A stretch of DNA of 64,000 nucleotides from an uncultured Prevotellaceae bacterium (GTDB lineage: Bacteria; Bacteroidota; Bacteroidia; Bacteroidales; Bacteroidaceae), in the NCBI GenBank assembly GCA_947166345.1, contig CAMVDU010000006.1, positions 1 through 64,000 on the forward strand, written 5' to 3'. The notes below the pieces were generated by a model that worked only from the letters and a program-made list of their open reading frames with translations, was not told where the DNA came from and did not search any database. Every line of letters begins with the position of its first letter. The stretch's first letter is position 1. Below are positions 41,090-45,278 of the stretch, piece after piece. The position numbers and the translations under genes are program-made.

Positions 41090-41884
41090 TTAATGTTTGA
41101 TCTCGATGTCGCGTTTCACGTTATTCCTGATCTTTGCCAGATAGCGTTTCATACCCTCGGCATCTTTCTGGTCGATAATCTCAAGCAGTTCCTTCAGTTC
41201 CGTACGGATCTGAGCCACTTGATCGTGGGTATATGGGTTGAAAAGTATTTCCTGCAACAGGTAGTCATCCTCGTTAAGAACGCCCTTGGCTATACGCATG
41301 TGGCGTTTGAAGGTAGTGCCTGGCGCATCTTGATGCTTCATCACAGCAGCAAAGACGAAAGTGCTGACGAAGGGGATAGACAGCGAATAGGCCACCGTCT
41401 TGTCATGCTCTTCAAACGAATATTCATAGATATTCAGGCCTAGGCGCTGATAAAGGTCCTTGAAAAAGATGCGCCCCATGTAGTCGCCCTCGCTGATGAT
41501 AATAGCGTTCTCCTCGGAAAGCTGTTGCAGGTTGGCAAAGGTAGGACCAAACATCGGGTGAGTTGACACATAGCGCATACCCGTCTGCTCATAGAAGTCC
41601 TTCAGGTCAGTCTTCACGCTGGCTATATCGCTGATGATGCACTCCTTGGGTAGGAAAGGAATCACCTCTTTGAACACGGGAATGGTGTATTTCAACGTCA
41701 CGGCATTAATCAACAGCTCAGGCTCAAATGCCTTGATTTCCTCATAAGTAGTGAACCGTTGACAGTTATAGGTAAAGCGCATGCGCTTAGGGTCTTTTTC
41801 GAAGACTGCCACCTCATGGTCAAAACTCAGCAGGTCGATGAAGAAACTACCCATCTTACCTGCTCCCATTACTAATATCTTCAT
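41090..41884 (-). CDS. tyrA: Prephenate dehydrogenase
   Basis: MKILVMGAGKMGSFFIDLLSFDHEVAVFEKDPKR...; STHPMFGPTFAN. Confidence 0.88.
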   Translation of the reverse strand: MKILVMGAGKMGSFFIDLLSFDHEVAVFEKDPKRMRFTYNCQRFTTYEEIKAFEPELLINAVTLKYTIPVFKEVIPFLPKECIISDIASVKTDLKDFYEQTGMRYVSTHPMFGPTFANLQQLSEENAIIISEGDYMGRIFFKDLYQRLGLNIYEYSFEEHDKTVAYSLSIPFVSTFVFAAVMKHQDAPGTTFKRHMRIAKGVLNEDDYLLQEILFNPYTHDQVAQIRTELKELLEIIDQKDAEGMKRYLAKIRNNVKRDIEIKH

Positions 41885-41938
41885 GCTATTTGCTATAGGC
41901 AATTGGCTAAAAGCTAAACGCTAATAGCCAAAAGCCAT

Positions 41939-43003
41939 TTATTTGTTAATAATTTCCATCTGTTGACGCACACTCTCCTCGTGGATACCTTCGAAGACCT
42001 TAGCCACGAACTCGGCTCCCATACCCAGGAGTGAGCCTTGGGCACCACGCTTCGACAGGATCTCGTTATAACGTGAGGTTTGCAGCACGGTCATATTATG
42101 ATCCTTTTTGTACATACCGATTTCACGACACACACGCATGCGCTTGGCCAGGATATCCATAATCTGGTTGTCCAACTCGTCAATCTGCTTACGTAGCTGA
42201 ACAATGCCCTCTGTAGTGGTATGCTCATCACGAATCACCAGCAACGACAGGATATAGTCAAGCACGTCGGGTGTTACCTGTTGGGAGGCATCACTCCACG
42301 CTTTGTCAGGATCGCAATGGCTCTCCACAATCAGACCATCGAAGCCAAGGTCCATCGCCTGCTGACACAACGGAGCGATAAGCTCACGCCGGCCACCGAT
42401 ATGACTGGGGTCACTAATAATTGGAAGTTCCGGTATGCGACGATGTAACTCTATGGGTATCTGCCACATAGGCATATTTCGATAAATCTTTTTCTCATAC
42501 GATGAGAATCCACGATGGATGGCTCCCAAACGTTTCACGCCGGCCTGGTTGATACGTTCCAAAGCACCAATCCACAGCTCGAGATCGGGGTTCACGGGAT
42601 TCTTTACAAATACGGGAACATCGACACCTTTCAGAGAGTCGGCCAATGCCTGCATGGCAAAGGGGTTGGCCGAGGTACGGGCACCAATCCACAGGATGTC
42701 GATGCCATATTTCAATGCCAGCTCCACATGTTCGGGTGTAGCCACCTCGGTAGCCACGAGCATCTTTGTTTCTTCCTTTACCTGTTTCAGCCATTGCAGG
42801 GCAGGTTCACCATGCCCCTCGAAACCTCCCGGCTTGGTACGAGGCTTCCACACGCCTGCACGAAAGTTGTGGCAGCCTTTCATGGCAAGTTGCTTGGCTG
42901 TTGTCATCACTTGTTCCTCAGTCTCGGCAGAGCAAGGGCCTGCAATCACGAAGGGACGTTCGTTGTCACTTGGCAAATTCAATGGTGCTAATTCTAATTC
43001 CAT
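41939..43003 (-). CDS. Bifunctional DAHP synthase / chorismate mutase
   Basis: FVIAGPCSAETEEQVMTTAKQLAMKGCHNFRAGVWKPRTKPGGFEG...; C-terminal CM domain (IDELDNQIMDILAKRMRVCREIG). Confidence 0.93.
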   Translation of the reverse strand: MELELAPLNLPSDNERPFVIAGPCSAETEEQVMTTAKQLAMKGCHNFRAGVWKPRTKPGGFEGHGEPALQWLKQVKEETKMLVATEVATPEHVELALKYGIDILWIGARTSANPFAMQALADSLKGVDVPVFVKNPVNPDLELWIGALERINQAGVKRLGAIHRGFSSYEKKIYRNMPMWQIPIELHRRIPELPIISDPSHIGGRRELIAPLCQQAMDLGFDGLIVESHCDPDKAWSDASQQVTPDVLDYILSLLVIRDEHTTTEGIVQLRKQIDELDNQIMDILAKRMRVCREIGMYKKDHNMTVLQTSRYNEILSKRGAQGSLLGMGAEFVAKVFEGIHEESVRQQMEIINK

Positions 43004-43018
43004 AGGTATATTTACGTT

Positions 43019-44197
43019 TTACTTGTTTACGATTTCTTTGATGCGCTCCAGAGCGACTTGTATCTTTTCCTCTTTGGCACAAAGCGAGATACGGATATAG
43101 CGTTCACCGTTCGAGCCGAAGATGAAGCCTGGGGTGATGAAAACACGGGCCTCATGCAGAACACGCTCCGTGAGATCTTCTACGTTCTGAATACTCTCGG
43201 GAATCTTGCCCCAGAGGAACATGCCCACCTGATTCTTGTCGTAGGTACATCCAAGCACATCCATGATCTTCTCGGCCCACTGGCGGCGACGGGCATAGGT
43301 TTCGATATTGTATTCGAGATGCCAGGCCTCGTCGTTCTTATAGGCTTCGGCAGCAGCCAGCTGGATGCCACGGAAAATGCCACTCTCTATGTTCGACTGT
43401 ACCTTCAATATCCACTGGATGAACTGCGCATTAGAGGCACAAAGACCCACGCGCCAGCCAGGCATGTTGTGACTCTTCGACATAGAGTTGAACTCTATGC
43501 AACAGTCCTTGGCGCCAGGAACCTGCAGGATACTGAGATGTTCCTCGCTCAGAATGAAGCTGTAGGGATTGTCATTCACCACAACGATGTCGTAATCTTT
43601 AGCGAACTTCACCAAGCGCTCATAGGTCTCCTTGCTGGCACGACCCCCTGTGGGCATATTGGGATAGTTGGTCCACATCAGCTTCACCTTGCTCAAGTCC
43701 ATCTTCTCCAACTGATCAAAATCGGGCTGCCAGCCATTGTCTTCGCGCAGGTCATAGTTCACGATCTTAGCACCCAGAATCTTGCTCAGCGACGTATAGG
43801 TGGGATAGCCAGGATTAGGCACCAGCACCTCATCGCCAGGATTCACGAAGGCAAGCGTTACGTGTAGGATGCCTTCCTTCGAACCAATCAGAGGTAATAC
43901 TTCCGTCTTAGCATCAAGGTCCACGTTATACCAGCGCTTGTAGAAGCCACTCATGGCCTCTCTCAGCTCAGGTGTTCCCTGTGTGGGCTGATAGCCGTGG
44001 GCGTTGGGTTGCTGGGCAACCTCACAAAGCTTATCGATGGTCTGCTTTGACGGGGGCATATCGGGACTGCCAATGGCCAAGGAGATAATGTCCTTACCCT
44101 CAGCATTCATCTGTGCCACCTCTTTCAGCTTACGGCTGAAGTAGTACTCCTGTACCAAACTTAATCTATCTGCTGGCTGTATCATAATAATTATCAA
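43019..44197 (-). CDS. PLP-dependent aminotransferase (aromatic operon)
   Basis: SLAIGSPDMPPSKQTIDKLCEVA..., NYPNMPTGG, FNSMSKSHNMPGWRVG. Confidence 0.92.
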   Translation of the reverse strand: MIIIMIQPADRLSLVQEYYFSRKLKEVAQMNAEGKDIISLAIGSPDMPPSKQTIDKLCEVAQQPNAHGYQPTQGTPELREAMSGFYKRWYNVDLDAKTEVLPLIGSKEGILHVTLAFVNPGDEVLVPNPGYPTYTSLSKILGAKIVNYDLREDNGWQPDFDQLEKMDLSKVKLMWTNYPNMPTGGRASKETYERLVKFAKDYDIVVVNDNPYSFILSEEHLSILQVPGAKDCCIEFNSMSKSHNMPGWRVGLCASNAQFIQWILKVQSNIESGIFRGIQLAAAEAYKNDEAWHLEYNIETYARRRQWAEKIMDVLGCTYDKNQVGMFLWGKIPESIQNVEDLTERVLHEARVFITPGFIFGSNGERYIRISLCAKEEKIQVALERIKEIVNK

Positions 44198-45024
44198 TTG
44201 GATTTATACTCTCCTAAAATTTTCAGGTCGCGTGTCAACGGGATGATGGCATCCACCGCCTGACGATAACGTGTCAAGTCACTATAGGTCACATCAACAT
44301 AGAACAGGTACTCCCACTCCCTACCGATGATGGGCAACGACTGAATCTTCGTCAGGTTAATCTTGTAGAACGACAAGATGGCGAGGATGGCCGACAGCGA
44401 TCCCTCTTCGTGAGGCAGGGCAAAGACAATGCTCGACTTGTTGGTATCGACCAGCGGACGCAACATGTCTGCCTTCTGTGGAGCCGAGCACACCAAAAAG
44501 CGGGTGAAGTTGTGCTTATTATCCTCAATACCGTCCTCCAGCACCTTCAGTCCATAGAGTCTGGCAGCCTCAGCATGACAGATGGCCGCCCATCCCTTGT
44601 GCTGCCCTTCGGCAATCATCTTAGCCGAGCCTGCAGTATCGTCACCTTCAACGATGCGCAGGTTGGGATGGTGCTCCAAATAGTGGCGTGTCTGCATCAG
44701 GGCCACAGGATGCGAGTGTACCTCGGTAATGGTATCCCAGTCATCATCGGGCAGACAGCAGATACAATGAGTGATGTGCAGTTTATGCTCGCCCACAACG
44801 GTTGTACCGCTATCACGCAGCAGCTCATAGTTGTGTAGCAACGAGCCTGCAATGGTATTCTCGATGGCGGCCATAGCCACCACAGTTGGGTCTTTGCGGA
44901 TGCTGTCATAAACCTGCTCGAAGGTCTGGCAACAAATCAACTGCAGTTGTTCACCCTTGAAGTACTGATGGGCTGCGATGTCGTGGAAAGACCCTATTTC
45001 TCCTTGTATTGCTATTCTCTTCAT
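44194..45024 (-). CDS. pheA: Prephenate dehydratase
   Basis: MKRIAIQGEIGSFHDIAAHQYF..., ACT domain; ATGA overlap with the downstream aminotransferase. Confidence 0.93.
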   Translation of the reverse strand: MKRIAIQGEIGSFHDIAAHQYFKGEQLQLICCQTFEQVYDSIRKDPTVVAMAAIENTIAGSLLHNYELLRDSGTTVVGEHKLHITHCICCLPDDDWDTITEVHSHPVALMQTRHYLEHHPNLRIVEGDDTAGSAKMIAEGQHKGWAAICHAEAARLYGLKVLEDGIEDNKHNFTRFLVCSAPQKADMLRPLVDTNKSSIVFALPHEEGSLSAILAILSFYKINLTKIQSLPIIGREWEYLFYVDVTYSDLTRYRQAVDAIIPLTRDLKILGEYKSN

Positions 45025-45056
45025 ATCTCAATTATTCACTTATCATTTAATAAGAA

Positions 45057-45147
45057 GCCCCACTTTCACTCTTCGTGAAGCGGGGCCTTATTTCAATTCT
45101 CAATTTTCCATTAACAATTATCTATTACATACGACTACCCGCTTCAC
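45057..45147 (-). promoter_or_regulatory. Transcription attenuator (antiterminator/terminator) of the pheA operon
   Basis: Minus strand: segment 1 GTGAAGCGGG (45147-45138), segment 2 GCCCCGCTTCAC (45086-45075), segment 3 GTGAAAGTGGGGC (45069-45057). 1:2 perfect over 10 bp, 2:3 pairs 12 bp with one bulge, then TTCTTATT. Confidence 0.82.
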
Positions 45148-45199
45148 AATGGCTTGTAAAGTAATAATAATAGTAATAGTATGCATTGAATTTCGACAT
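45125..45199 (-). CDS. Attenuator leader peptide MSKFNAYYYYYYYFTSHCEAGSRM (24 aa)
   Basis: ATG TCG AAA TTC AAT GCA TAC TAT TAC TAT TAT TAT TAC TTT ACA AGC CAT TGT GAA GCG GGT AGT CGT ATG TAA, between a TAATTTTG promoter box and the attenuator. Confidence 0.82.
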   Translation of the reverse strand: MSKFNAYYYYYYYFTSHCEAGSRM

Positions 45200-45229
45200 A
45201 AAATCTTACGATTTATTATTATTCGGGTG

Positions 45230-45237
45230 CAAAATTA
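45230..45237 (-). promoter_or_regulatory. -7 box TAATTTTG of the pheA operon
   Basis: Minus strand TTATAATTTTGCACCC, 30 nt before the leader ATG. Confidence 0.6.
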
Positions 45238-45278
45238 TAACAATTCCTTGAATCTGCCAAACTTTTTGCCAAAAATTT

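Follow-up and report, generated by a model that had tools for sequence, protein, structure and literature searches.

The operon for phenylalanine and tyrosine biosynthesis of an uncultured Prevotellaceae bacterium is preceded by a Tyr/Phe-rich leader ORF and three co-evolving RNA helices, which very probably make up a ribosome-mediated transcription attenuator of the trp/phe/his type that responds jointly to charged tRNA-Phe and tRNA-Tyr. This predicted Phe/Tyr attenuator is widely conserved in Bacteroidia and belongs to a known kind of attenuator; within the family databases and open-access papers searched, it is new. Ribosome-mediated attenuation of a Phe/Tyr operon had been proposed from this one sequence, and the comparative data described below support it strongly.

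Architecture of the leader upstream of pheA

The window, i.e., the whole 64-kb stretch of DNA that was analysed, contains the following biosynthetic genes:

44194-45024, minus strand: pheA, prephenate dehydratase (Pfam PF00800, E = 4.6e-53)
43019-44197, minus strand: class I/II aminotransferase (Pfam PF00155)
41939-43003, minus strand: DAHP synthase fused to chorismate mutase (Pfam PF00793 and PF01817)
41090-41902, minus strand: tyrA, prephenate dehydrogenase (Pfam PF02153 and NCBIfam prephenate dehydrogenase models)

The products of this operon are both phenylalanine and tyrosine. Its identification as a set of Phe/Tyr genes downstream of a pheA start at 45024 is borne out by position and Pfam. 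The region upstream of pheA contains these elements:

45230-45261, minus strand: promoter, comprising TTTG (45261-45258), a 20-nt gap and TAATTTTG (45237-45230), which fits TAnnTTTG (from sequence)
45125-45199, minus strand: leader ORF of 24 codons, MSKFNAYYYYYYYFTSHCEAGSRM then stop (from translation; relatives keep the leader)
45158-45181, minus strand: control codons 7-14, comprising seven Tyr and one Phe (from translation)
45142-45161, minus strand: protector hairpin, CTTTACAA (45161-45154) with TTGTGAAG (45149-45142) (minimum free energy (MFE) fold, alignment A1, swap test)
45138-45147, minus strand: segment 1, antiterminator 5' arm, GTGAAGCGGG (perfect 10-bp complement of segment 2; swap test)
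45075-45087, minus strand: segment 2, GGCCCCGCTTCAC, common to antiterminator and terminator (pairing, swap test)
45056-45069, minus strand: segment 3, terminator 3' arm, GTGAAAGTGGGGCT (pairing, alignment A1, swap test)
45048-45055, minus strand: T-rich stretch 3' of the terminator, imperfect (from sequence)

The leader ORF with its run of seven tyrosine codons and the promoter box upstream of it were both found as originally predicted. The latter is of the Bacteroidetes type, in which TTTG lies 20 nt upstream of TAnnTTTG, and 159 of 164 loci have a TAnnTTTG motif no more than 110 nt ahead of the leader, compared to 6% of shuffles. When the upstream region was dinucleotide-shuffled 3000 times, no shuffle yielded a short ORF with at least 8 Tyr/Phe per 9 codons (the maximum was 6), and the MSKFNAYYYYYYYFTSHCEAGSRM leader is the sole short ORF in the whole window with more than 6 Tyr/Phe in 9 codons.

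Segment 1 and GTGAAAGTGGGGC (45069-45057, in segment 3) lie where they were first placed. Segment 2, initially given as 45086-45075, pairs as proposed, but its exact complement is two bases shorter: CCCGCTTCAC (45084-45075) forms a perfect 10-bp helix with GTGAAGCGGG (45147-45138). The terminator hairpin (45087-45056) has a folding energy of -21.3 kcal/mol and is followed by a U-tract, TTCTTATT, that is imperfect in the source genome and better in many relatives. The 171-nt leader as a whole folds with -49.4 kcal/mol (z = -5.3), and its MFE structure contains a hairpin between the codon run and segment 1. By eye, this protector hairpin could be extended by CATAC (45183-45179) with GTATG (45132-45128), which is CTTAC/GTAAG in many relatives. 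The original three-segment scheme, with a 1:2 antiterminator and a 2:3 terminator, stands, but it left out this upstream hairpin; since the hairpin co-evolves, the layout corresponds to the classical four-segment scheme of protector hairpin, antiterminator and terminator.

Conservation of the leader in Bacteroidia

In a set of 80 pheA loci from close relatives, a Tyr/Phe leader (e.g., MTKFNAYFYFYYYFTSNCEAGSRM and LNAYFYGYYFYFASNCEAGSRK) was found in the region before pheA in 74. The six loci without one are five stand-alone pheA genes that are not followed by the operon genes in this order (L019, L021, L025, L026 and L029) and one contig (L057) that is cut 141 bases before pheA and retains recognisable segment 1 and terminator sequences; there was no other case. 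In a wider set of 100 pheA upstream regions, drawn from genomes of the order (149) and of the family (151), 90 contain the leader; the ten regions without it include one contig end and three that precede a different, longer pheA-like gene. Comparison of pheA upstream regions, originally put forward as a check, reveals a conserved leader ORF in both samples. Among 20 genomes from other orders of the class, 14 contain an ORF in which six or more of nine codons specify Tyr or Phe, a density seen in fewer than 1% of shuffles.

Several individual loci deserve mention. The metagenome-assembled genome RUI320 carries a leader-bearing pheA (L010) in addition to the leaderless L019, which may reflect a second gene or a mixed assembly. 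Two pheA genes of genus g152 (L156 and L162) have no leader within the 450 bases searched, and in L162 a promoter-like TAnnTTTG lies close to pheA, as if the attenuator had been lost. In another genome (locus L118), pheA is preceded by a weaker leader, MYFDFVFGFLFCFPKS, and a terminator, possibly a decayed attenuator.

Co-evolution of the helices

Automatic detection found a hairpin with a T-rich tail in 161 of 165 loci, and in 94% of loci the pairing of the stretch 3' of the codon run with the terminator 5' arm equals or exceeds that of at least 95 of 100 self-shuffles. Because the terminator and the antiterminator share an arm, we used a partner-swap design, in which own and exchanged partners were compared in 54 dereplicated sequences. 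Own partners pair better for segment 1 with segment 2 (antiterminator, p = 3e-10), for segment 2 with segment 3 (terminator, p = 8e-11) and for the codon run with segment 1 (protector hairpin, p = 5e-4 in the wide and p = 0.001 in the near version), these values being only indicative because related sequences are not fully independent. In the negative control on the same 54 sequences, own partners were not better (p = 0.6). Compensatory changes in segments 1, 2 and 3, a further check named at the outset, are thus present.

In alignment A1 (73 sequences), the protector hairpin is 97.9% paired with changes on both sides; taken together with the terminator, pairing is 97%, with 72 both-side changes versus 23 in shuffles. 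The antiterminator pairs are nearly invariant among the closest relatives, so their co-variation is drawn from the wider set, with pairs such as GGTCGGG/CCCGACC (L107), CTCGGGA/TCCCGAG (L115) and GACAGGATTTT/AAAATCCTGTC (L101).

Amino acids probably sensed, and alternative explanations

The source leader itself, with seven Tyr codons in succession and Phe at codons 4 and 14 only, could suggest a pure tyrosine sensor in which the Phe codons are incidental. In relatives, however, Tyr is freely exchanged for Phe: the last nine run codons of 165 leaders comprise 659 Tyr and 655 Phe, both residues occur in 161 leaders and Phe alone in four, and 156 leaders end their run with a Phe codon. We therefore regard a Tyr-only sensor as improbable. 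Since Tyr and Phe codons are used approximately 1:1 across species and the operon makes both amino acids, the best reading of these sequences is a bivalent sensor of Phe and Tyr, with the source genome at the Tyr-rich end. The original prediction of a leader that senses Tyr (and Phe) charging accordingly keeps its attenuation of a Phe/Tyr operon and loses its specificity for Tyr.

Terminator-like hairpins are frequent between genes, and the TPR gene upstream of the leader runs in the same direction as the operon; the hairpin might thus be an ordinary terminator of the upstream transcript or a constitutive brake, with a leader ORF that is untranslated or has another role. This is very unlikely: the promoter sits between the TPR gene and the leader, and neither an in-frame Tyr/Phe run nor a co-evolving segment 1 would be needed by a plain terminator. 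Moreover, the upstream gene is not conserved, with just 14 of the 80 close-relative loci showing the TPR gene next to the operon, whereas the leader stays with the operon, so that promoter and leader belong with the pheA operon. The high degree of structure in the leader, and the location of part of the Tyr/Phe run in a helix, would also be compatible with a ligand- or protein-binding RNA (a riboswitch, a T-box or a regulator site) whose codon run would matter as RNA rather than as coding sequence. We give this even less credence, as TAY and TTY codons are kept in frame (1314 of the 1485 run codons in the 165 loci) while flanks and length vary, no aptamer-like conserved core was seen, and Rfam returned no match to the window, T-box included. 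We rejected all three alternatives; the bivalent attenuator is the reading retained.

Ribosome-position model

The locus combines a leader ORF rich in codons for the amino acids of its operon, an antiterminator and an intrinsic terminator that exclude each other through a common arm, and a protector hairpin involving the control codons. In the proposed mechanism, RNA polymerase would start approximately 25 nt before the leader ORF, with a ribosome following. A lack of charged tRNA-Tyr or tRNA-Phe would make the ribosome stall on the codon run and break the protector hairpin, leaving segment 1 (45147-45138) exposed to capture segment 2 as it emerges; no terminator would then form, and the operon would be transcribed from pheA through the aminotransferase and DAHP synthase/chorismate mutase genes to tyrA. 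If both tRNAs are charged, the ribosome would advance by at least two codons and cover segment 1, segments 2 and 3 would pair, and transcription would end near 45050.

The spacing of the elements fits a ribosome footprint. Assuming a footprint of 28 nt and a transcript cut just before segment 3, the antiterminator probability in the source leader is ~1.0 with the A site at any codon through one past the last Phe, and at most 0.16 with the A site two or more codons beyond that Phe, as far as the stop. Among 113 sequences, the median under this model is 1.00 at the last Tyr/Phe codon and falls to 0.57, 0.23 and 0.10 at two, three and eight codons beyond it. A stalled ribosome is thus predicted to free the antiterminator arm and an advanced one to cover it. 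Without a ribosome, the truncated transcript prefers the antiterminator in 83% of loci; this and the imperfect U-tract of the source genome count against the model. Some leaders (e.g., L014, L018 and L034) have an early stop codon, closely before or within segment 1, and a ribosome terminating there would also cover segment 1.

Equilibrium folding of the complete leader with a ribosome mask always favoured the terminator. The modelled switch therefore depends on the assumed order of events; we set whole-leader folding aside as uninformative and replaced it by the fold before segment 3 emerges.

Tandem copies and searches for further leaders

The least expected part is the presence of tandem modules. 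In four loci (L084, L087, L090 and L091), two complete modules lie in series between approximately -320 and -20 before pheA. Both modules possess a separate leader ORF, segment 1 and terminator, and the pairing sequences differ between the two, e.g., ACGGG/CCCGT and GGTGGGAT/ATCCCACC. We know of no described tandem of ribosome-mediated attenuators. If true, doubled attenuators would compound termination or set two response thresholds.

We also searched for further leaders. In the source genome, a pattern of seven Tyr/Phe codons hit the pheA leader and two other places, and the one of these two that was inspected is located inside a gene region; a five-His pattern revealed no his leader, and a Trp pattern did not exceed its control in frequency. 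Tyr/Phe runs are frequent in ten further genomes, where the short-ORF cases that were fetched are either the pheA leader or have no downstream gene. A His-rich ORF elsewhere in the source genome (L208, contig C10, 1465-1662) encodes a small protein beginning MSEHQHHYSHHYHHHHHKKDW that probably contains a membrane segment; it does not represent an attenuator leader.

Relation to known systems

The proteobacterial phe leaders, such as those of E. coli pheL-pheA and pheST, follow the same attenuation logic, and the known ones contain only Phe codons. The present leader resembles them in its control-codon leader peptide, alternative helices and intrinsic terminator before pheA; it differs in combining Phe and Tyr codons and in its phylum and operon. 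In the ilvGMEDA and ilvB leaders of enterobacteria, which are multivalent for branched-chain amino acids, a single leader likewise senses more than one amino acid made by its operon, a likeness of logic. A 2010 survey by Lopatovskaya et al. may have predicted attenuators in the Bacteroidetes phylum.

Searching the window with Rfam gave only chance matches below cut-off. Phe_leader (RF01859, gathering cut-off 55 bits) did not match the window at E <= 10 and scored below threshold in two relatives (L090 and L181), the best score being 34.1 bits in L090. Pfam and NCBIfam leader-peptide models did not match three leaders at E <= 10, although peptides this short are hard to match. Bacteroid-trp RNA (Rfam RF01692) is known from the same phylum (PMC2864571). 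It was absent at its 49-bit cut-off from the window and its genome (82% complete), and present in five of six Bacteroides-type genomes tested. The one copy that was read (L228, 1520-1580) has two Trp codons in its leader, MKTILVNACWWRFLQPRKS, and a terminator hairpin behind it, which is consistent with a trp attenuator. It shares phylum, leader peptide and terminator hairpin with the present leader, and differs in carrying Trp instead of Phe/Tyr codons. The suggestion that the present attenuator may be undescribed holds for the Phe/Tyr type within the families and papers searched, but the mechanism as such has a precedent in the phylum, the Trp-Trp leader of Bacteroid-trp.

A motif before aroF in Acholeplasma, uORFC-13-1, was proposed as a Phe-codon leader with a terminator (24 representatives, at least one Phe codon; PMC8632094); it is similar in preceding an aromatic-pathway gene and belongs to another phylum and gene. 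An earlier study listed phenylalanine operons among the attenuators, and tyrosine among the T-boxes (2005; PMC1262725). For Bacteroidaceae, a survey of RNA regulons listed only two regulogs (2013; PMC3766115), and a B. thetaiotaomicron transcriptome study went no further than noting sORFs reminiscent of attenuation leaders in some long 5' UTRs (2020; PMC7366714). The open-access papers searched yielded no description of a Phe/Tyr leader in Bacteroidetes. Because no such paper and no Rfam, Pfam or NCBIfam family describes a Phe/Tyr leader, we class this one as new within the known attenuator kind.

On balance, we favour the view that it represents an old, uncatalogued class of bivalent Phe + Tyr attenuators, standard for the joint Phe/Tyr operon across Bacteroidia and doubled in series in some lineages. 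Few descriptions exist of amino-acid control in Bacteroidota of the gut and rumen. An attenuator conserved across the order and beyond makes clear predictions on codons and pairings that are directly testable in Bacteroides, for which the leader also offers a natural Phe/Tyr-responsive control element, as well as a seed for a new RNA family.
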